Assembly: GCA_038040445.1 (NCBI GenBank) | Contig: JBBPIG010000002.1 | Location: 124,001-188,000, forward strand | Direction of reading: 5' to 3' | Length of the DNA: 64,000 nucleotides | Source of the DNA: Acidobacteriota bacterium | GTDB lineage: Bacteria > Acidobacteriota > Blastocatellia > UBA7656 | Shown: positions 6,438 to 51,382 of the stretch, one piece after another | Layout: each line of letters starts with the position of its first letter | How positions within the stretch are numbered: position 1 is the stretch's first letter | Made by a program: the position numbers and the translations under genes | Notes under the pieces: generated by a model | What the model was told of the DNA's origin: nothing | What the model saw: only the letters and a program-made list of their open reading frames with translations | Database searches by the model: none

Positions 6438-8024
6438 CTAGCGCCGGTGGCGGCGCGAAGAGGTGTGGCGGGCCGAGTGGGTTCGCACTGAGCCGCGGTG
6501 GCGCCCACGCACGGCGGGCAATGTTCGATAGCGACCAACACGCCCGTGGCGGCCTCGCGATGCGCGCACTGCCTTGGGGATCTTGACCGTTTGGCCCTTG
6601 CGCAACTCGCCGCGCGACGATATGCGATTCAGCCTGGCAAGCTCCTTCACTGAGACACCCGATCGGCGCGCGACCGAAGCGAGCGTGTCACCCCTTCTCA
6701 CCTGATAAGAGGCGACTTGAACCCGGTACGCGCTGCGGTATCGTTCGGCGATCTCCTCGCTGGGAACGGCGATCTTGCGCACACGCTGCGTCTCGGGCAA
6801 ATCGGCGTACGCAATCTCGAACTGCTTCTTCATTCCCTTCGGGAGCTTAATTGTGTAGCGCTGACCTGCCGGAGAGGTGCCCCGCCGCAGCTCGGCGTTC
6901 AAGTCCTGAATTGTTTCGTAGGGCACGCCGATTAGATCGGCGGCCACCTTTAGATCGGTCTGCGCAGGAACCTCAAAGGTGTCGTAGTTGAGCGGGGTAT
7001 CCGGTTTTACATCAAAACCGTAACGCTTCTGGTTCTTGCTGACAATGATGATCGAAAGAATCGCCGGCACGTAGTTGCGAGTCTCTTGCGGCAGCAGTCC
7101 TCGCTTGTACAGTTCCCAGAAATCAGCGTAACCACATCTGGCGATCGCACCATCTACTCGATTCTCGCCCGAGTTGTAAGCCGCCATCGCAAGCAGCCAA
7201 TCCCCTGCGAAATGGTCGTGCAGCCAGCGCAGATACCTCGCCGCGGCGCGAGTCGATTTCTCGGGTTGAGACCGCTCATCGATCCACGTCGTCTGCGCCA
7301 ATCCATAACGCGTGCCGGTCGAAGGTATGAACTGCCAGATGCCCTTCGCCGCGGCGCGTGATAGCGCGTTAGGCTTCCAGACCGACTCCGCCTGGGCAAG
7401 CCATATCAGATCGGTCGGAACACGCTCTTCCTTGAAGACCTTCTCGACCATCTGGCGATAGCGACCCGAACGTTGGAGCCCGGCTTCCATCGTAGAACGG
7501 CCGCGACCGGCAACGAAGAAGTTGATGAACTGAAACACCGGCGGCGCAACCGCGAAGTCGAAATCGTAACGGCCGAAGATCTTCACTCCATCCGGAGTGA
7601 CCATCGCGAGTTCGGCTTCTTTGATCTCAGAAACTTCGTCGAGCACCGAAGGCTCAGCTACCTCGGGCCGATCAGCCGCGTCGTGAACGTCTCCGGGCTG
7701 AGCTTCGTGCTTGTGTATTCGATCTAGAAGAGTGCGGTAGTAAGCTGCCAGCTTGGTATCGGTCTTCAGGTCTATCCCTGATTGCAAAACGGTGTCGAGC
7801 GCGTGATCGAACATCTTGCGAGCGATGTCGGGCAAGCCCTTCGCGAACGCTTCTTCGCCGCGCAGACACGCTTCCTCCGCGCGGTCAATGACAGATCGAG
7901 TGCTTGTGGGTAAGGCCGGTTGCTGTGACCCGCCGAGGGCTTGCACTGGTCCGGCGGTTCCGATGAGCAATAACGAAAGAAGTAGCACAACTGGAACACG
8001 ACTCGCCGCTGTTGCTAGCCTCAT
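6438..8024 (-). CDS. Membrane-bound lytic murein transglycosylase D-like protein with LysM
   Basis: This enzyme would cleave peptidoglycan glycan strands in the periplasm. The 528 residues comprise a signal peptide (about 1-30, hydrophobic VVLLLSLLLIGTAGP), a helical region, an SLT lysozyme-like domain (about 195-320) with the catalytic Glu in WLAQAESVWKPNALS (about E213), GIWQFIPSTGTRYGL and MAAYNSGENRV, and a LysM domain near 440-485 (YQVRRGDTLASVARRSGVS). The last 40 residues are very basic (Arg/His-rich), which is unusual and could bind acidic polymers. E. coli MltD is shorter and has two or more LysM copies. Confidence 0.92.
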   Translation of the reverse strand: MRLATAASRVPVVLLLSLLLIGTAGPVQALGGSQQPALPTSTRSVIDRAEEACLRGEEAFAKGLPDIARKMFDHALDTVLQSGIDLKTDTKLAAYYRTLLDRIHKHEAQPGDVHDAADRPEVAEPSVLDEVSEIKEAELAMVTPDGVKIFGRYDFDFAVAPPVFQFINFFVAGRGRSTMEAGLQRSGRYRQMVEKVFKEERVPTDLIWLAQAESVWKPNALSRAAAKGIWQFIPSTGTRYGLAQTTWIDERSQPEKSTRAAARYLRWLHDHFAGDWLLAMAAYNSGENRVDGAIARCGYADFWELYKRGLLPQETRNYVPAILSIIIVSKNQKRYGFDVKPDTPLNYDTFEVPAQTDLKVAADLIGVPYETIQDLNAELRRGTSPAGQRYTIKLPKGMKKQFEIAYADLPETQRVRKIAVPSEEIAERYRSAYRVQVASYQVRRGDTLASVARRSGVSVKELARLNRISSRGELRKGQTVKIPKAVRASRGRHGRVGRYRTLPAVRGRHRGSVRTHSARHTSSRRHRR

Positions 8025-8267
8025 CTATGGGTTTTACCTTCCTGTTCTCAAAATGTCAGGATGAAGTCGCGACTCACGTGACTGATTCAATTGCTCGGTC
8101 ACCGAGGGGCAGAGTCGCAGTCTCAACCGTTTGGCGTTTGCACACCTGCCTAATGCGGCTTTTATATCACGCTAAATTCCAGGCCGTCAATGAAATAGCG
8201 GCTCGCAACAGAATTGAAACAATTGGGGCTCGGCCCCTGTGGCTGGTCGATGTCCTGAACCTCGGGG

Positions 8268-10634
8268 CTACAGAAGCGCGGTCCTCAACGCCTGTTGCAC
8301 CGAATCGACAAACACGAAGGTGATTTCCTTCTGCAACTCTTTAGGGACCTCTTCGAGGTCGCGGCGGTTTTGTTGAGGCAACACGATCGTGTTCACGCGA
8401 GCGCGGCGCGCGGCCAGGACCTTTTCCTTCACGCCTCCAACAGGCAGCACATTTCCGCGCAGGGTGATCTCGCCGGTCATCGCCACTGAGCGCTTCACCG
8501 CTTTGCCCGATAGCGCCGAAACCATGGCTGCGGCGAGTGTTACTCCCGCGGAGGGTCCGTCTTTCGGGATCGCGCCTTCGGGAACGTGCACGTGGATGTC
8601 GAACTTACCGAACTTCTCGGGATCGATGTTCAGCTCTTCGGCGTGCGCCTTTGCCCACGACAGGGCGGCTTGTGCCGATTCTTTCATCACGTCACCCAGT
8701 TGACCAGTGAGCACCAGCAATCCCTTGCCGGCCGTAAGGAGCGCTTCGATAAACAGCACGTCGCCGCCGGCCGGAGTCCAGGCGAGCCCGGTCGCTACAC
8801 CGATTTGATCCTTCTTGAGCACTTCGTCCGGATAAACGTGAGGAATGCCGAGGAACTCGTGAAGATTCTTTACGGTCACGCGAACGAGCGCGTCGCTTCC
8901 TTCGGCGACTCGGCGCGCAACTTTGCGGCTGATGCCGGCGATCTCGCGTTCGAACTGCCGCAAGCCGGCTTCGTGCGTGTACTGGAGAATGATTCCCTTC
9001 AGCGCCGAGCGGCTGATGGCCATATGTCGAAGCGTGATGCCGTGCGCTTCCATCTGCTTGGGTATGATGTGGCGGCGAGCGATCTCGACTTTTTCCTCTT
9101 CGGTGTACCCCGCCAGGCGGATGACCTCCATCCTGTCTCTCAGCGCGGGGTGCACGGTGTCCAGCATGTTTGCGGTCGTCATGAACATAACGTTCGAGAG
9201 ATCGAACGGCACGCCTAGATAATTGTCGCGGAAAGAAAAATTCTGTTCGGGGTCGAGCACTTCGAGGAGCGCCGACGATGGATCGCCTCTGAAGTCGGCG
9301 CCAACTTTGTCGATCTCGTCGAGCATTATCAGTGGATTGTTTGTTCCCGCCTGCTGAATGGATTGAACGATGCGGCCGGGCATCGCTCCAATGTAAGTCC
9401 GCCGATGGCCGCGAATCTCAGCCTCGTCGTGCAAGCCGCCCAGGCTCAGCCGCTGAAACTTGCGGTTGAGAGCGCGCGCGATCGAGCGGCCCAGGCTGGT
9501 CTTCCCGACGCCCGGCGGTCCGACCAGACAGAGTATCTGGCCTTTCAGTTTCTCTTTCAGCTTCCGTACGGCGAGCGTTTCAATGATTCGCTCTTTGACC
9601 TTATCGAGCCCGTAGTGGTCTTCGTCGAGAATCGTCTGAGCTCGTTTGAGGTCCAGGTTTTCTTCGGAAGCCTTGGACCAGGGCAGCGCAACCATCACGT
9701 CGAGGTAGTTGCGAAGAGTCGCCGCTTCGGCGGCGTCGGGATGCATGCGCTCGAGCTTCTTGATCTGCCGGTCGACTTCTTCCTCGACGGCTTCGGGCAG
9801 CTTGGCCTGAAGCATCTTCTCGCGATACTGAGTTATCTCTTCGCCCAGTTCGTTGCCTTCACCCAACTCGGTCTGAATCGCCTTGAGTTGCTGCCGCAGA
9901 TAGAACTCACGCTGGCTGCGATCGATCTCGCCCTTAGCTTGAGTGTTGATCTCCTGCTGAACCATGAGCACGTTGATCTCTCTGGCAAGCAGCTCGTTGA
10001 CGCGGTGAAGGCGCTCGGAAGGATTGAGCTTCTCCAGCACGCTTTGAGCGTCGACGACTTTGAGCTCGAGGTTTGAAGCGGCGACGTCGGCGAGACGGCC
10101 GGGGTCTTCGAGATTGGCGACGATGGCCATGACCTCGCCGGAAATGTTTTTGCCAAGAGTGATCGCGCGCTCGAGCGAGGCTCGCACGTTGCGTATGAGG
10201 GCCTCCAGCTCGAGCTCATCGGCGTCGGGCTCGGTGTCGGCGAGCGGCAGGATATGAGCGAGCAGGTGAGGAAGGTTCTCGTCGATGCGCGTGACGCTGG
10301 CGCGCGCGAGCCCCTGGACAAGGATCCGTATGCGGCCATCGGGCATCTTGAGCATCCGCATGATCGACGCGGCAGTCCCATAATTGTAGAGATCGGGACC
10401 CGAAGGTTCCTCTTTCTCGAGGTCGCGCTGGGCCACGAGCATGATCATTCGATTCTCGGCCAGCGCTTGCTCGACAGCTCGAATCGAACGTTCGCGCTGC
10501 ACGAACAGGGGAACGATCATGTAAGGAAAGATGACGATGTCGCGAAGCGGCAAGACGGGAAGCGAATCCGGCAGCTTTAACTGCTCATCGCTTCGCTCGA
10601 TTTGAATCTCTTCTGGTTCGATTAGTGATGACAT
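8268..10634 (-). CDS. lon: ATP-dependent protease Lon
   Basis: Lon is a cytosolic AAA+ serine protease that degrades damaged and regulatory proteins, including many antitoxins. The 788-residue protein has the LAN substrate-binding domain ([21 protein letters not shown]), Walker [12 protein letters not shown], Walker [11 protein letters not shown], and the Ser-Lys catalytic dyad in [13 protein letters not shown] and [16 protein letters not shown]. Length and domain order are normal. It lies just downstream of the orphan DUF433 gene and next to the toxin-antitoxin patch. Confidence 0.98.
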
Positions 10635-41488: not shown

Positions 41489-44101
41489 TCAGAACAACCA
41501 CAATTCCGGCCTTAGCGCCTGCCAAATCTTTTGCGCCAGGATTAGGCCGATAGACTGCCGGCCGAAACTGATGCGCGCGAAACCGGTCATCCCTGGACGC
41601 AGCAGCCCATCAGAATTCTCAATCAAAACCTCAACAGGATAAAACCGCTGAGCGCGCTCATTTGGAATTGGCTCGGCGTTTATCTTCGAGACTCGGCCGG
41701 TGAATACGCGGCCGGGCATCGTCTTCAATTTGAACCGGACTGGACTGTCGAGTCTGACGCTGCCGATCTCGCGCTCGCTCACGTCAATCTTGAGGAAGAA
41801 CTTCCCGATCTCGCCAATGCGGCAGATCTCTTCACCGCGGCTGTAGCGGCGACCAACCATCTTGCGCATATCTTCACCAAGCACTACTCCGGCTTTCGGC
41901 GTCACTATTGCCATGCCTTCAGACTCGCGCCTGAGTATCTCATGCCTGTGCCGGAGCGATTCGAGCTGCTGCCGATTCGAGTGTAGCTCTGCAATCAACG
42001 ATTCGAAGTTTGAGCGAGCGGCGCGCGCTTCGGTTTCCGCCACCAGCGAATTTGTCTGGGCGCCGCTTGTTAGCCTGTGGTGGTCTACAAGAGCCGCGTC
42101 CAGTCGTGCGCGGGCGGCGCGAAGTGCCGTCTCACTCAGCCGCGCTTCGGCGACAGCCCGGTCATAGATCTGCTCGCCGACCAGCCCTTGATCGAACAGC
42201 TTCTTGTAGCGCTCCACCTCTCGACGATTGCGATCGAGCTCGATTTGCTTCAGCTCTATTTCCGACTGAAGAACGGTGAGTGAGGCCGGAAGCGGTTGAG
42301 AGCGCTGAGCGCTTTTTTCCGCGTTGGCGATTTGAGCCGACTCATCCTTAAGCTCATTTGCCAGACGCTTGCGGTCGGTCTCTTTAAAGTTAGCCGAAAG
42401 CACGTTCTCGCTTCGCACGCGGAGATCGTCCTCTATTCTCGAATTGTTGGTGTTGAGCCGGTCAATCTCCGCGCTCAACTGCGTGAGGCGGTCTTCGATT
42501 TCAGGGTTGGAGAGGCGCGCCACTCTTGCGCCTTCGGCGAGAGCATCGCCCGGCTGAACGTAGATTTCGGCCAGCACGGCATCGGTGTTAGCGCGCACTA
42601 CGCCCTCACGGTCCGGTGGCAAGAGTAGGGTACAGTCGCTTCCGGTAGCCGCTTCCCAGGGCGCGATGAGCACTGCGATCACAATCAACGCGAAACCCAG
42701 CTTGATAACCTTGCGGCGCTTTGGAAACCACGCCTTTCGAGTCTCACTTTGGGGGCTGTTCTGCTCCGAGGTTGGCTTGTCTACAACTGTTTGTGCTGAC
42801 ATGCTGGGTACTCCTTCGATCGTGCTTAATGCTCGCTCCACGAACCGCTCATCGGACGTTTTCTCACGTCGAGCGTTAGCGAGGGATGAAGCAAGCAAAG
42901 CACGTCCTTCGGTCAAAATCGGTTTCCACCATCTTTCAGTTAGCAACGCGGTCAGGAGCATCGTTAGCAACACTCCCAGGAATCGCAATCCGTCCATCAG
43001 CTCGCCGCTTACCCATCCGAGGATGAGCCAGATCAAGATCACGGAATAGAGAATCGACGAGATCCAATAGCTGAAATAGAGCAGCGGCCTTTGAGAATCC
43101 GCCTGTCTCTTCTGTGGCTCGCCCAGAAGTCTTGCGAATAGGGATCGCACGTAATCAGAGGAACGAGCCTGCAGATTAACAACGCCGAGCGCTTGCGAAA
43201 GCGCGTAGTAGCCGTCGAGCTTGATTAGAGGATTGCAGTTGATAAGGATGTTGAACGACCCGCCAATGAAAACCAGCAGCGACAGGTCCCCCAACAGCGA
43301 GTACGGAGTTGCAATAAGCCAACCCAACCCGCCGAGGGCGCTTACTATCAATTGCCAGTAGATGCCGGCGAAGATCACCCACAGGCGCTCGCGCTTGCGG
43401 CCCATGCGGTAGATATCCGTGACATTGCAATAGAAGGCCGGCAAGACGTAATAAATCAGCAACACGCCCATCTCGCGGACATCCCCGCCGAAGTGCTTGC
43501 AGGCCAGTCCGTGCGCGAACTCGTGCAGCGCAGTTATCGTTAGCGTTATCCCAAGAATTGCCGCAATGCCATACTCACGATAGAGGTAGGATGTATAGGT
43601 TGAGACTTCATCAACTCTGGAAAGCATACCAAAAGCGACGATCAGCATAAGCACGAACGAAGACACAATGGCAGGTTTGGTGAGCGCCCAGCCAAAAACC
43701 CGATCGAGCCACGCCAGCACCTTATCAGGGTTGAATAGGTGGAATCTGACGTAGAGCCCGCGCTCAGGCCGGTGACCGGCGATCGAACCATCCGTGCCGC
43801 CGCGCGCCAGCAGACCGAACGAGTCGAGCTTGCCAAGGAATCTTACGAGCGTCGCGCTTGTCACGCGCGGACCATTGGCTTGAGGTCCGCCGCTCGCGAC
43901 ATCCGAAACCGTCAGTGTGCCGTCGAACTGACTCAGTATTCTGTACTCGGGCTGTTTAAGAAGAAAGTAGCGGGAGGTAGCGGTGTTGCGCACGACGTAA
44001 CGCGTAACGCCTGCTTCGATCTGCTCGGTGATATCGACCTCGGCGCCGAGGCGCGGCGGGTACAGGCAATACAGTCCGGGGTGTTGTTCTTGTGTGTCCA
44101 T
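41489..44101 (-). CDS. PqqD-like/M50 peptidase/HlyD adaptor fusion, candidate peptide processing-export protein
   Basis: The 870-residue protein has three parts. Residues about 10-100 resemble a PqqD winged helix, the RiPP leader-binding fold (TSRYFLLKQPEYRILSQFDG, LVRFLGKLDSFGLLARG). About 135-400 form an M50 membrane protease with zinc motif ALHEFAHGLACKHFGG (H193, E194, H197) and CNPLIKLDGYYALS giving the third ligand (about D296). About 465-870 are a membrane helix and an HlyD adaptor with two lipoyl halves (VVRANTDAVLAEIYVQPGDA; IVTPKAGVVLGEDMRKMV) around long coiled coils. Related M50/HlyD proteins occur beside peptide export systems; no ABC transporter or TolC gene is beside it. A 33-residue peptide gene is upstream. 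Confidence 0.88.
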   Translation of the reverse strand: MDTQEQHPGLYCLYPPRLGAEVDITEQIEAGVTRYVVRNTATSRYFLLKQPEYRILSQFDGTLTVSDVASGGPQANGPRVTSATLVRFLGKLDSFGLLARGGTDGSIAGHRPERGLYVRFHLFNPDKVLAWLDRVFGWALTKPAIVSSFVLMLIVAFGMLSRVDEVSTYTSYLYREYGIAAILGITLTITALHEFAHGLACKHFGGDVREMGVLLIYYVLPAFYCNVTDIYRMGRKRERLWVIFAGIYWQLIVSALGGLGWLIATPYSLLGDLSLLVFIGGSFNILINCNPLIKLDGYYALSQALGVVNLQARSSDYVRSLFARLLGEPQKRQADSQRPLLYFSYWISSILYSVILIWLILGWVSGELMDGLRFLGVLLTMLLTALLTERWWKPILTEGRALLASSLANARREKTSDERFVERALSTIEGVPSMSAQTVVDKPTSEQNSPQSETRKAWFPKRRKVIKLGFALIVIAVLIAPWEAATGSDCTLLLPPDREGVVRANTDAVLAEIYVQPGDALAEGARVARLSNPEIEDRLTQLSAEIDRLNTNNSRIEDDLRVRSENVLSANFKETDRKRLANELKDESAQIANAEKSAQRSQPLPASLTVLQSEIELKQIELDRNRREVERYKKLFDQGLVGEQIYDRAVAEARLSETALRAARARLDAALVDHHRLTSGAQTNSLVAETEARAARSNFESLIAELHSNRQQLESLRHRHEILRRESEGMAIVTPKAGVVLGEDMRKMVGRRYSRGEEICRIGEIGKFFLKIDVSEREIGSVRLDSPVRFKLKTMPGRVFTGRVSKINAEPIPNERAQRFYPVEVLIENSDGLLRPGMTGFARISFGRQSIGLILAQKIWQALRPELWLF

Positions 44102-44114
44102 ATGAATGAAGGCA

Positions 44115-44208
44115 CGAAGGGCGCGGTGGCTTCGAATCTTGGCGGATCATCCTGTGGCTGTGTGCTTTGTGGATGATGCGCTTCAGTTCACTGTCACCGC
44201 GCCCTTCG
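44115..44208 (-). promoter_or_regulatory. 14-bp inverted repeat between peptide gene and M50 fusion
   Basis: CGAAGGGCGCGGTG (44115-44128) is matched exactly in inverted form at 44195-44208. The arms enclose 66 bases and lie wholly in the 126-base gap between the small peptide gene and the fusion gene. As RNA it could limit read-through, so that the peptide would be made in excess. That use is inference. Confidence 0.5.
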
Positions 44209-44227
44209 CAGGTTCGGTTGTTGATTC

Positions 44228-44329
44228 TTAGTGGCCGACTATCACCGCGGGTGCAACCACTTCTTCCACTTCTTCGATTTCCAACTCGAAGATGACTCCG
44301 TCTTCGACTATCTTGATTTCGTTTCGCAT
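44228..44329 (-). CDS. 33-residue acidic peptide, candidate RiPP-like precursor
   Basis: A short gene with ATG 44329 (a second ATG is directly upstream at 44332) and a strong AAAGGAG six bases before it. The peptide starts MRNEIKIVED, has a Glu/Val-rich middle and ends APAVIVGH. It has no Cys, Ser, Thr, Trp or Tyr, so lanthionine or sactionine chemistry is excluded. It is not hydrophobic enough for a signal peptide or membrane helix. Size, ribosome binding site and the PqqD-like/M50/HlyD gene downstream on the same strand suggest a precursor peptide that is bound, cut and exported. A leader peptide with a regulatory role is an alternative. Confidence 0.6.
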   Translation of the reverse strand: MRNEIKIVEDGVIFELEIEEVEEVVAPAVIVGH

Positions 44330-44332
44330 CAT

Positions 44333-44737
44333 GGTCTCCTTTGTAGTTCTTGTTTTCTGTGACTGGGTTGTGACGGCAACTTGAGAGCAGCTTTTACAAC
44401 CCCTTGTTTCTCACGTCACTAGGGTTGGCAATGTGCGTGCCGTCGCAGACGTGAGGAGCGGGCTAGCTGCCGCATGTTTGAAGTCAGTAACTTAGCTGCT
44501 TGAGGGAGTGACCGGCAGGGTAGATAGAAATGGGAACCCACTACACACTTGCGATCACGCGACTGTAAGTGGGATCGAGGCGGAGGTTATTGGAGTTGTG
44601 TATCAACTATCCTTGCGTGTACCTGCTACACACTTGGGAGCGGTTCGTAGTCCCGCCTTCAGGCGGCAGTTCGTGGCGAGGGCTGGCGGTCAGGTACAAG
44701 CTTCCGCCTGAAGGCGGGACTACAAACTACGAGCTTC
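44333..44737. other. Non-coding interval upstream of the peptide gene
   Basis: About 405 bases without a supported gene. It contains the 20-bp inverted repeat at 44647-44723 and two copies of CTACACACTTG (near 44541 and 44627). A promoter for the peptide gene should lie in the left part, but no clear -35/-10 pair is seen. Confidence 0.5.
44647..44723. repeat. 20-bp perfect inverted repeat (element D)
   Basis: Arms 44647-44666 and 44704-44723 are perfectly complementary around 37 bases. The core reads AGTCCCGCCTTCAGGCGG. It lies 15 bases from the stop of the HD-GYP gene and could end that transcript, but it resembles a dispersed intergenic element. Confidence 0.85.
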
Positions 44738-48325: not shown

Positions 48326-51300
48326 TCAGTCGCCGAAGTTCAAGCGGTCCATCTTCAAATAGAGTCCCTTTCGCGAGAGTCCCAGATCCTTCGCCGCGCG
48401 GGCTATGTTACCTGACGAGCGGCGAAGGGCCTCTTGAATCATTCGACGCTCCAACTCTTCCACCGCCTCGCCCAGCGTCGTCGAGTCAGTACTCATCTGC
48501 ATCGAGGGCGCATGTTTTCTTGAGCTGGCCGGGCTGGCATCGAGTTCACGGCTGGCTCGCACGATCTCGGAAGAGAGAGTTTCCGGAGTAACGATCGTAG
48601 CCGATTCACTGTAGGTAACGATGCGGCGCACTTCGTTACACAACTGCCTGACATTGCCAGGCCAGTCGTACACCACCATAAGGTCGACTGTTTCCTCGGA
48701 GAGTCTGATCTCATTCTTCGCCGCCTCCTGCTGATATTGACTCATATAGTGGTTGATTAGGGCCGGAATCTCTTCACGTCGCTGTCTCAACGGCGGCACG
48801 TGGACCCTGATAACGTTTATGCGGTGAAAGAGGTCTTCGCGGAATCGGCCTTCGGCAACCGCACGCTCGAGTTCCGCGTTGGTGGCCGCCACGACGCGCA
48901 CGTCGACGCGTTGCGGCTGGCTCTCCCCGATGGGATGAATCTCACCTTCCTGCAGGAACCGCAGGAGCTTTGGCTGAAGCGTGAGCGGCAGATCGCCAAT
49001 CTCGTCCAAAAAGAGCGTGCCGTGCTCGGCGCCGCGAATGATGCCCTCGCTGTTGGCGATGGCTCCGGTGAAGGCGCCTCGCCGAAATCCGAATAGCTGG
49101 CTCTCAATCATGTCATGCGGCGCGGCCGAGCAGTTGAACGGTAGAAAGACGTTCATGCGCCGCGAACTGCCTGCGTGCACCGCTCGCGCGATCAACTCCT
49201 TGCCTGTGCCCGACTCGCCGGTAATCAGCACGGTGACGTCGGAGGATCGAATCTTGTAGATCTGCTCGAGCACGCGACTCATCGCGCGGCTTGCACAGAT
49301 GAAACCGGGGAGCTCGACCTGCGCCAGCAATCGTGCCGGATCGAACACCTGCGTGCGCCGGCTCTTGGTCCTGAGAATCTGTGTCTCCAACCCTTGCTCA
49401 ACTATGGAGAGCAGAGGCTTCATGTTGACGGCGCCATTCAGGTAGCGCTGCGATCCCGGATCGACGATGTGAAGCAAATAGGCCGTCTCCTGATTGTCGC
49501 TGATCCGGTAGACAGATTGGCTTCGGTAGTGTTCGGGCGAAAGCGTGTGAAGGAAATCGATCCTTTCACGTTGCTCTGCCTGGTTAAGCCCGATTGAAGC
49601 CGCGACTCTCAACCTCGGGGCCTCTCTTTTTGCGGATTCGTCGTTGAGAATCTCGGCGACGACCACTCCGCGGCTCGATGATTGGTCCCGCACGATCGAG
49701 ACAAGCTCGTGCAGCAGCAGATCGCGCGACACCGATGCCTGCACCAGGCGATGGGCGATGAACCCGTCGACGGCCGAGGCGAGGCCTTGAGCGATGGACG
49801 GACGGCTGTCGGAGCGTCCAACTTCAAGGTTTCGAGGTTCACCGTTCTCCGGTAACTCATCAGGCTTGGACTTCGCTCTTAGCGATTCGAGAAAAACTCC
49901 GGCGTTGCGCGCGTCGATTGCGGCGCCAAGGCGCTCGAACGCTTCGAGTGCCGATTCCACTTCGGCTATCGCGAGCCCGATGTTGCCCTGTCTCTCAATC
50001 ATCCCGGCTAGCAATACCTGATTCACCGCGCAATGGTAGTCGTTACGTCTGAGCGTGTAGATGGATGTGCTCTGCGCGAGCGATTGGATCGCCGCGGCAG
50101 TGTACCCGTCAGCGACTTCGATCTTCGCGACCATTCGCATCAGCAGTCCCCATACGAGCAGGTTCGGCGCTTCGCGAAGAAATGCTCGCACGTTTTCGAC
50201 AAGCTCGCGCGCTTCTTGCAGCCGGCCGTTTTGAAGCAGCGCCTCGGCAAGCCAGAGCCGCGCCTCCGGAAGGTCATGCTGTTCCCCTCGCCGCGTCGCA
50301 ATGTCTACAGCTCGCTCCAAAGGCGCGATGGCAAGCTCCGTATTTCCTCTTACCAGGTGGCTGCGTCCAATGGTCATCTGGGTGCTGGCTTCGGCCCACT
50401 CGCCGTTCTTGATCGAGGAAAGAATCTCGAGCGACGTCGCAAGTGCGCGATCCGACTCGTCGAGCCTTCCCATCAAAAGGTAGAGTTGGGCTAAAGTATC
50501 GTACGCCCCTCCCTGAGCCGCAACGCTGTTCACCTTGGAAAGCGTCTCAATCGCGCACTTGGCAAGCTCTTCGGCGCGGGCCCACTCGCAAAACCGTATG
50601 AGCTGCATCGCGAAGTTGTTCTGGTTGATGGCAACGAATTTCGGGTTGTCCGCGCGCTTAAAATCCTCGATGCATCTTTCCCAAGAGGCTATTTCCTTGT
50701 CCACCTCGCCCAGGTTCGAATAAACCACCGCGAGATACCAGTGAGCGCGGCCCAACAGGTCGGGCTCATCTCGGTTCCCGATGATCGTCAACGCCTGCTT
50801 CACCGAATGTAGGGCGTTCCGAAAATCACCCTCGCGCGCGTTGATGTACCCGATGTTGATGTATGACTCGGCCAGCTTGCTCCAATTGCCAACCTGCCTA
50901 TAGTGCTCAAGCGCCGATGAGTACTGATCACGCGCAATACGAAGTTCCGAGAAAACGCTGTAAGCCCGGCCCATCCCGAAGTAACACTCGCCCATCTGCA
51001 CGTGATCATCGGCGGCGCGCGCCAGATGTAGCGCCTGGTTGAAGAGCGCGATCGACCTGGGTATGTCGTTGTTAAAGCAGTAGCCCAATCCCAGCCGGAT
51101 CAGTACTGACATCTGCGATGCTTCGGATAAGCGGTCAAAGTCGGCTGGCTTTCCATACTTGGAAACGGCTTCAAGCTGTTCAGGATTGAGCCCGCGCTTC
51201 TCGAGCGCCACGCTTAGCAGACAGCGAATCTGCGCCTCTTCGTCGTTGGATCGCGGCCCCAGCCGGAGGGCGGACTTGAAATTATTCGCCGCCTCCTCGA

Positions 51301-51382
51301 ACCGGCTCTGGTCCAGCGCAGCTTGACCGGCAGCTACCATCTCATCGATGCGGTGACTGCCGAGTACTTCTCTAGTTGCCAT
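48326..51382 (-). CDS. TPR/GAF-like sigma-54-interacting transcriptional activator
   Basis: The 1018-residue regulator has TPR repeats over about 10-500, a GAF-like segment (about 540-670), an AAA+ sigma-54 domain (about 690-930; Walker [16 protein letters not shown], the FRRGAFTGA contact loop, LFLDEIGDLPLTLQPKLLRF) and a Fis-type helix-turn-helix at the end (GNIARAAKDLGLSRKGLYLK). No receiver domain is present, so activity is probably set by TPR partner binding and the GAF-like input. The sigma-54 loop is intact. Its targets are unknown; no -24/-12 site was found nearby. Confidence 0.93.
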   Translation of the reverse strand: MATREVLGSHRIDEMVAAGQAALDQSRFEEAANNFKSALRLGPRSNDEEAQIRCLLSVALEKRGLNPEQLEAVSKYGKPADFDRLSEASQMSVLIRLGLGYCFNNDIPRSIALFNQALHLARAADDHVQMGECYFGMGRAYSVFSELRIARDQYSSALEHYRQVGNWSKLAESYINIGYINAREGDFRNALHSVKQALTIIGNRDEPDLLGRAHWYLAVVYSNLGEVDKEIASWERCIEDFKRADNPKFVAINQNNFAMQLIRFCEWARAEELAKCAIETLSKVNSVAAQGGAYDTLAQLYLLMGRLDESDRALATSLEILSSIKNGEWAEASTQMTIGRSHLVRGNTELAIAPLERAVDIATRRGEQHDLPEARLWLAEALLQNGRLQEARELVENVRAFLREAPNLLVWGLLMRMVAKIEVADGYTAAAIQSLAQSTSIYTLRRNDYHCAVNQVLLAGMIERQGNIGLAIAEVESALEAFERLGAAIDARNAGVFLESLRAKSKPDELPENGEPRNLEVGRSDSRPSIAQGLASAVDGFIAHRLVQASVSRDLLLHELVSIVRDQSSSRGVVVAEILNDESAKREAPRLRVAASIGLNQAEQRERIDFLHTLSPEHYRSQSVYRISDNQETAYLLHIVDPGSQRYLNGAVNMKPLLSIVEQGLETQILRTKSRRTQVFDPARLLAQVELPGFICASRAMSRVLEQIYKIRSSDVTVLITGESGTGKELIARAVHAGSSRRMNVFLPFNCSAAPHDMIESQLFGFRRGAFTGAIANSEGIIRGAEHGTLFLDEIGDLPLTLQPKLLRFLQEGEIHPIGESQPQRVDVRVVAATNAELERAVAEGRFREDLFHRINVIRVHVPPLRQRREEIPALINHYMSQYQQEAAKNEIRLSEETVDLMVVYDWPGNVRQLCNEVRRIVTYSESATIVTPETLSSEIVRASRELDASPASSRKHAPSMQMSTDSTTLGEAVEELERRMIQEALRRSSGNIARAAKDLGLSRKGLYLKMDRLNFGD

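Follow-up and report, generated by a model that had tools for sequence, protein, structure and literature searches.

A conserved 33-residue peptide gene beside an RRE/site-2 protease/HlyD fusion gene in an Acidobacteriota genome: a candidate two-gene system for a very short peptide

In a 64,000-nucleotide stretch of the genome of a soil acidobacterium (phylum Acidobacteriota; assembly GCA_038040445.1, contig JBBPIG010000002.1, positions 124,001 to 188,000; the whole stretch is called the window here) we analysed a 33-codon minus-strand frame that a first-pass annotation, made from the sequence alone, had picked out behind an AAAGGAG site and upstream of a gene for a leader-binding-like domain, a membrane protease and an exporter adaptor. 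The frame and its AAAGGAG site are both present, the peptide has no Cys, Ser, Thr, Trp or Tyr, as had been said of it, and all three parts of the downstream protein were recovered: a PqqD-like fold of the kind called RRE (recognition element of ribosomally synthesized and post-translationally modified peptides, RiPPs), an M50 or site-2 protease (S2P), and a HlyD adaptor. Together the 33-residue gene and the neighbouring fusion gene look like a two-gene system that makes and releases a very short peptide. The features of the two genes, in window coordinates, are these:

44228..44329, minus strand: gene of the 33-residue precursor peptide MRNEIKIVEDGVIFELEIEEVEEVVAPAVIVGH, from the frame, conservation in genomes G002, G003 (two copies) and G005 (two copies), a leave-one-out hidden Markov model (HMM) and codon-position bias
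44336..44342, minus strand: ribosome-binding site AAAGGAG
44249..44284, minus strand: leader recognition motif LEIEEVEEVVAP (residues 16-27, from alignments), ending at a predicted cut after Pro27 that matches the daptide motif ELExMEAP with Pro at -1
44231..44248, minus strand: predicted released core AVIVGH (residues 28-33), from alignment with the hypervariable tails of relatives
41489..44101, minus strand: 870-residue RRE/site-2 protease/HlyD fusion, downstream of the peptide gene on the same strand
43802..44044, minus strand: RRE (PqqD-like) domain, about residues 20-100, from the strand-strand-strand-helices order in AlphaFold2, Foldseek and profile matches
42926..43726, minus strand: site-2 (M50) intramembrane protease domain, about residues 126-392, from invariant catalytic residues and Foldseek matches to SpoIVFB and mjS2P
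43511-43525, minus strand: HEFAH, residues 193-197, in the protease domain
43211-43219, minus strand: LDG, residues 295-297, in the protease domain
41492..42703, minus strand: transmembrane helix and HlyD-type periplasmic adaptor, about residues 467-870 (HlyD_D23, E 5e-17)

An alternative in-frame ATG one codon earlier, at 44332, would give 34 residues; since the second ATG (MRNE...) has the better spacing from AAAGGAG and lines up with the starts of the homologues (MINE, MTNE or MINQ), we preferred the 33-residue reading. Three further genomes of this family (G002, G003 and G005) have homologues of residues 1-434 of the fusion, 54-58% identical to them, and upstream of the fusion gene in all three we found a short same-strand open reading frame (ORF) with the same motif: MINERTNEEVLDILDIEELEEIVAPGRLLAA in G002, MINEMINNDGELLVELEIVEMEEVVAPGILIVN in G003, where one further ORF lies between this gene and the fusion gene, and both MTNERTNNCEEGVILTDIDIEEFEEVVAPGFLLSE and MSDEKNIGVLLSDVEEVELEIEEMEEVVAPGRVAAIA in G005. 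A second G003 copy, MINQRTDLEGVMVDDLNIEEMEEVIAPGLTLAE, is unlinked to the fusion. The window peptide and the peptides at the same position have in common the motif L-x-I-E-E-x-E-E-[VI]-[VI]-A-P. A profile built without the window peptide placed the window frame first among 1767 stop-to-stop frames of the window (E=2e-5, with the runner-up at 0.39), and a profile from the repeat units of other families alone again placed it first (E=7e-4). Pairwise differences over 13 motif codons numbered 43, 10 and 105 at codon positions 1, 2 and 3, respectively, and this concentration at third positions indicates constraint at the level of the protein. The conserved short acidic frames and the coding constraint on which the first-pass annotation had staked its proposal were thus both found. 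Frames as small as this one often arise by chance, but the same-position homologues, the leave-one-out profile rank and the codon-position bias, along with the conserved palindromes and sigma-54-like element described below, leave a chance origin with a negligible likelihood; judged by these sequence comparisons, the frame is a genuine, conserved gene that had been overlooked.

In the AlphaFold2 model of residues 1-392 (pLDDT 89.8, pTM 0.86) the fusion has a winged domain at its N-terminus and a membrane part made of helices. The best PDB matches by Foldseek were the leader-peptide complexes of TfuB1 and TbiB1 (prob 0.96-0.99, target TM about 0.60-0.66, E around 0.1), followed by SpoIVFB and the Methanocaldococcus (M.) jannaschii site-2 protease. 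Sequence similarity in the RRE region was weak, with profile matches to PqqD (3g2b) and TbiB1 at E 0.02-0.09; the modelled fold and these matches are consistent with an RRE, no single score being decisive. The protease domain has the hallmarks of S2Ps, namely HExxH and the distal NP and D (of LDG) in membrane helices, and H193, E194, H197, N288, P291 and D296 are invariant in 44 fusion homologues. No full-length paralogue of the fusion was found in the window's own genome, where the matches were to the HlyD domain only.

Upstream of the peptide gene, and between it and the fusion gene, lie further elements:

44427..44442, minus strand: sigma-54-like -24/-12 element CGGCACGCACATTGCC, one mismatch to TGGCA-N6-TTGC
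44616..44632, minus strand: upstream palindrome 1, TGTGTAGCAGGTACACG (consensus TGTGTAGCWGCTACACA), the sole match in the window; the same element is found in all 5 peptide promoter regions
44597..44613, minus strand: upstream palindrome 2, a degenerate copy set exactly 19 bp away from palindrome 1, a spacing found in 5/5 loci
44531..44547, minus strand: upstream half-palindrome 3; G002, G003 and G005 have full palindromes at the corresponding position
44108..44215, minus strand: strong stem-loop between the peptide gene and the fusion gene (-51.7 kcal/mol, z -7.2)

The promoter set of the window family comprised five regions from four genomes, two G005 genes sharing one region. All five carry three 17-bp palindromes, the third 66-80 bp beyond the first two (triplets at window 44531-44632, L019 10469-10572, L020 36-150, L104 7692-7807 and L021 1169-1284). 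Of these copies the window's is the most degenerate, and its palindrome 1 is the only match with three or fewer mismatches to the consensus in 64 kb (chance 0.04). Downstream of the palindromes, a sigma-54-like element with at most one mismatch occurs in five of five regions, while none of 500 shuffle sets reached four of five; upstream of peptides of other types, some of which have little upstream sequence, the count was 0 of 14. Because the unlinked G003 copy carries the same promoter, we assign the promoter to the peptide. Read from these motifs, the peptide gene is served by a sigma-54-type promoter of its own, the three palindromes being predicted activator sites. Stem-loops of unrelated sequence also follow the peptide stop in G002 (z -4.8), G005 (z -3.2) and the second G003 copy (z -4.6), suggesting a device that holds the level of the precursor above that of the fusion. 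An RNA element upstream of the peptide was not supported, there being no Rfam match and a fold not above shuffles (z -0.09). A sigma-54 activator with TPR repeats, a candidate for the protein that acts at the palindromes, is encoded in the window at 48326-51382 (minus strand), and a second activator lies near a peptide locus (L021:10932-12473); the TPR fold binds short peptides in some Gram-positive regulators. A REP-like (repetitive extragenic palindrome-like) inverted repeat, CCGCCTTCAGGCGG...CCGCCTGAAGGCGG, occupies 44640-44722, between an HD-GAF-GGDEF gene and the peptide promoter.

Pairing of fusion and small gene extends well past the window family. Among 162 Blastocatellia genomes (peptide profile threshold E<1e-4) the fusion was present in 12 and the peptide profile in 11, with both in 8, and among 396 Acidobacteriota genomes the fusion was present in 31 (threshold E<1e-50). 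Signal profiles matched 16 of these 31 and 5 of the 365 others (Fisher 4e-16), and three of those five nonetheless have a fusion right beside the signal gene. The substrates take several forms. In the window family they are single peptides of 31-37 residues. A second form is a multi-unit precursor in which units of the NHNETVEVDLTVEExExVIAP type recur in tandem, as many as seven of them, interspersed with 3-7 hypervariable residues (GINL, GFTL, WFLQ, FILW and ALSP among others); in G160, G161 and G019 a TPR gene lies between the array and the fusion (the G161 gene by a by-eye reading). In the third form, DDLDFNIEEVEQVVAP leaders are followed by tails rich in Cys (...CSRKAWCC) and the fusion beside them has 1024 residues; a sister of this precursor in the same genome lies near a LanM synthetase (933 bits). 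The Cys-rich relatives are in G018 and G019 and the LanM synthetase in G018; they may represent a class II lanthipeptide-like system that uses the RRE-S2P-HlyD fusion. The window peptide, having no Cys, Ser or Thr, is not a class II lanthipeptide. The loci of the second and third forms are:

L067:9548-10063; L113:1720-2277; L066:5066-5704; L068:9554-9919 and 10294-10536: multi-unit precursor genes in tandem, whose NHNE...VEExExVIAP units are invariant and whose 3-7-residue inserts are hypervariable
L069:1-552; L070:4512-5005; L112:58-324 and 6777-10022: Cys-rich precursors (SCSRKAWCC) and LanM loci, with the same leader type

In further Acidobacteriota families, in one Phycisphaerae record and in two Betaproteobacteria records, the gene adjacent to the fusion carries (I/V)EELEERIAP and a variable tail. 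Small genes also stand in tandem: three to four of 31 residues (MAKKSTKKVVKLNVERLEKRIAPTRAAIAMG), almost the size of the window peptide, in G194 and G206, and five with LEELEPRIAP or LEERIAP in the planctomycete G659. When 44 protease domains were placed in a maximum-likelihood tree, every substrate type came out as a single group, which is the minimum possible number of changes. Fusion relatives across Acidobacteriota, Planctomycetota and Betaproteobacteria adjoin short genes with variants of one signal, a wider family that appears to be undescribed.

Several other features were seen at these loci. TPR protein genes lie between multi-unit precursor and fusion at L067:8249-9118 and L066:5760-6782, close to an extracytoplasmic function (ECF)-like sigma factor and to a long ORF that looks kinase-like (both by-eye readings). 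The tail G(L/Q)LGYEGQPGNQG after LEELEERIAP is nearly alike in Betaproteobacteria, Phycisphaerae and Acidobacteriota (L029:2684-2944, L030:518-718, L031:794-1072, L122-L124, L136), which suggests that it spread horizontally or is under strong constraint. Paralogous PqqD/M50-like proteins at L023, L024 and L026 are in the same order and sit beside other long uncharacterised genes, some radical-SAM-like by eye; these loci are possibly other RiPP clusters. A Shuttleworthella peptide, MKEFAIEEVESLEAPVSGRAVAGFAAGGASIAVVAGAAYLAC (L051:5438-5578), beside M50-type proteins has the same leader motif and a long hydrophobic core.

In daptides, an RRE-fused site-2 protease removes a leader with the motif ELExMEAP and Pro at -1 (PMC10036551). 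Aligned on this Pro, the window peptide reads E-V-E-E-V-V-A-P, then AVIVGH, and the tails of relatives at the place of AVIVGH are GRLLAA, GILIVN, GFLLSE, GRVAAIA and GLTLAE, as well as, in the multi-unit precursors, the stretches of 3-7 residues that separate AP from NHNE. In the window peptide and its relatives the stretch before the Pro is conserved and the stretch after it variable, the pattern expected of a leader and a core. A daptide proper, with the C-terminus converted to an amine and the S2P acting as MpaP, was considered on the strength of this ELExMEAP-like motif, which EVEEVVAP and ELEEIVAP fit in part (V rather than E at -3 and V or I rather than M at -4), and of a match of NF041824 (daptide_HExxH) to fusion residues 17-388 (E 2.5e-56). 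The score, however, is 191.5 against a cut-off of 300 bits. The C-termini are H, A, N, E, A and E with no Thr, the core is short, and no alcohol dehydrogenase or other oxidoreductase, aminotransferase, methyltransferase or MpaB-like gene was recognised in the neighbourhood. We rejected daptide membership, and consider this explanation highly improbable.

The computational evidence supports the conservation and coding constraint of the peptide, its linkage to and matched evolution with the fusion, the conservation of the promoter, the RRE and S2P folds, and the catalytic residues. Three features of a RiPP precursor are present: a conserved leader, a variable core, and a gene beside an RRE-bearing processing enzyme. 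The reading we favour, and think probable, is of RiPP type: after recognition of the leader, the fusion would cut behind AP within the membrane and set free a hydrophobic peptide of about six residues. Residues 1-27 would be the leader, and the RRE domain of the neighbouring fusion would bind its acidic amphipathic motif LEIEEVEEVVAP. Cleavage behind Pro27, within the inner membrane, would fall to the S2P (M50) domain. The released C-terminal fragment, AVIVGH in the window and GRLLAA, GILIVN, GFLLSE or GLTLAE in relatives, would leave through the periplasm aided by the attached HlyD adaptor, with the inner-membrane motor and outer-membrane channel possibly supplied by shared cellular components. 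No tailoring gene was recognised among the ORFs around 36-52 kb or in the homologous loci of the same family, although a more distant one is possible. Since none is encoded nearby, the product is probably a plain short peptide, and since Cys, Ser and Thr are also absent, proteolysis alone is the economical reading. This accords with the earlier proposal of maturation by the neighbouring leader-binding, protease and exporter protein, proteolytic and with no thioether chemistry, to which the conserved frames and coding constraint lend support, the maturation itself being predicted. The product would most likely serve as a secreted signal or a short growth inhibitor.

A number of points weigh against release of such a peptide. 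A six-residue core is unusually short for a RiPP, and residue 28 of the window peptide is Ala, whereas relatives mostly have Gly. No ABC transporter or TolC was found nearby, leaving the export route incomplete. G154, G158 and G020 have peptides but no detected fusion, and G155 has a fusion upstream of which a peptide was sought and none found. Lastly, the peptide profiles were derived from fusion-adjacent peptides, so the co-occurrence count is partly ascertained, and the related genomes behind its statistics are not independent. The very short tail, the lack of tailoring genes and the peptide's own regulated promoter would also suit a small regulator or inhibitor that stays uncut, binding to the RRE and governing the protease. 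Set against this are the hypervariability of the tail beside a conserved leader, the multi-unit relatives that repeat the recognition motif with variable inserts in the fashion of multi-core precursors, and the pairing of related fusions with lanthipeptide-like precursors; we regard an uncut regulator as unlikely, and prefer cleavage and release.

The LEERIAP-type relatives raise a further connection. A planctomycete cell-surface signal has been described as RRLxxExLExRxLLA or LxLExLExRxxP (Studholme 2004, as cited in PMC8567305; Pfam PF07595, Planc_extracel), and T. immobilis has 52 proteins with the N-terminal LxLExLExRxxP signal, 8 of its 10 longest among them (PMC8567305). The signals here have the same spacing of hydrophobic residues and Glu, a terminal Pro and an N-terminal position, and the LEELEERIAP relatives fit LxLExLExRxxP exactly; the window peptide, by contrast, has Val for the conserved Arg three residues before the final Pro, and the known carriers are large surface proteins. 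The fusions might belong to a protein-export system in which LxLExLExR/ExxAP acts as a sorting signal at the N-terminus, with the small peptides as its smallest cargo. Apart from the fit of the LEELEERIAP peptides beside fusions, this draws on an approximately 90-residue protein with MKRKLKVEELEARIAPS (family f12) that directly adjoins the fusion, on giant LEPR/LEDR proteins near the fusion in L037 and L038, and on PF07595, which was detected in 6 of 214 Planctomycetota genomes, 4 of them among the 51 with a fusion. That PF07595 search was underpowered, however, adjacent giants in 2 of about 15 planctomycete loci are near chance expectation, and a LEERIAP-only HMM fails to recognise the window peptide (E 2.8). 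We hold such an export system to be possible but doubtful, and less likely than release of a short core. The giant proteins, at L037:9270-13208 and L038:9037-12645 near planctomycete M50-HlyD genes, have N-terminal RELEPRVVLNA or LEDRRVLNA; the L037 gene set also holds a HlyD protein and a GAF-HlyD protein.

A literature search, mostly without subscription papers, turned up no machinery named for the LxLExLExRxxP signal and no link from it to M50/HlyD proteins, nor did we find a description of such a two-gene peptide pathway in Acidobacteriota. Tentatively, and with the odds rather against it, the RRE/S2P/HlyD fusions could be one recognition, cleavage and export machine for a whole class of acidic N-terminal signals, carried in Acidobacteriota by pheromone-like peptides of 31 residues and by multi-core precursors and in Planctomycetota by LxLExLExRxxP surface proteins, with the window system its smallest form: two-gene, tailoring-free, sigma-54-controlled short-peptide secretion in a Gram-negative bacterium. 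If true, a single chain combining leader recognition with intramembrane cleavage and an exporter adaptor would make for an unusually simple secreted-peptide pathway. The fusion family beside LEELEERIAP peptides is a concrete candidate for the machinery of the planctomycete cell-surface signal, and the tandem multi-unit arrays are ready-made natural libraries of short cores.

Among known systems, the Eep-processed pheromones of Gram-positive bacteria are alike in that an M50 protease frees a short hydrophobic peptide; their precursors, unlike the window peptide, are signal-peptide-like and not RRE-bound, and the exporter is separate. PCAT/C39 peptidase-transporters likewise combine leader removal and export within one protein, in their case a Cys protease cutting after GG and fused to an ABC ATPase, whereas the window fusion joins a metalloprotease to an adaptor without an ATPase. 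TMcin TmcP, which removes the leader in the membrane, and the epipeptide YydH-LiaK system resemble the fusion as S2P-clan proteases in RiPP pathways (PMC13252029, NF058609), but an RRE-HlyD fusion is not described there, TMcin uses a separate ABC exporter, and the precursors differ, being transmembrane or epimerised. The closest likeness is to daptide MpaP (PMC10036551; NF041824), with an RRE N-terminal to an intramembrane S2P and an acidic/hydrophobic leader ending in A-P, Pro at -1; the window S2P differs in its additional fusion to HlyD, in having no ABC transporter genes or MpaB/C/D/M, and in a substrate with no C-terminal Thr and a core of about six residues. The first-pass annotation had pointed to no characterised system of this design, which holds for the HlyD fusion, the tailoring-free very short core and the LEERIAP-type link, for which we found no precedent, but not for RRE-fused site-2 proteases acting on ELExMEAP leaders, which are known from daptides. 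The nearest known kind is thus the RRE-site-2-protease RiPP systems that daptides represent, from which the window system differs on the defining features that were tested.
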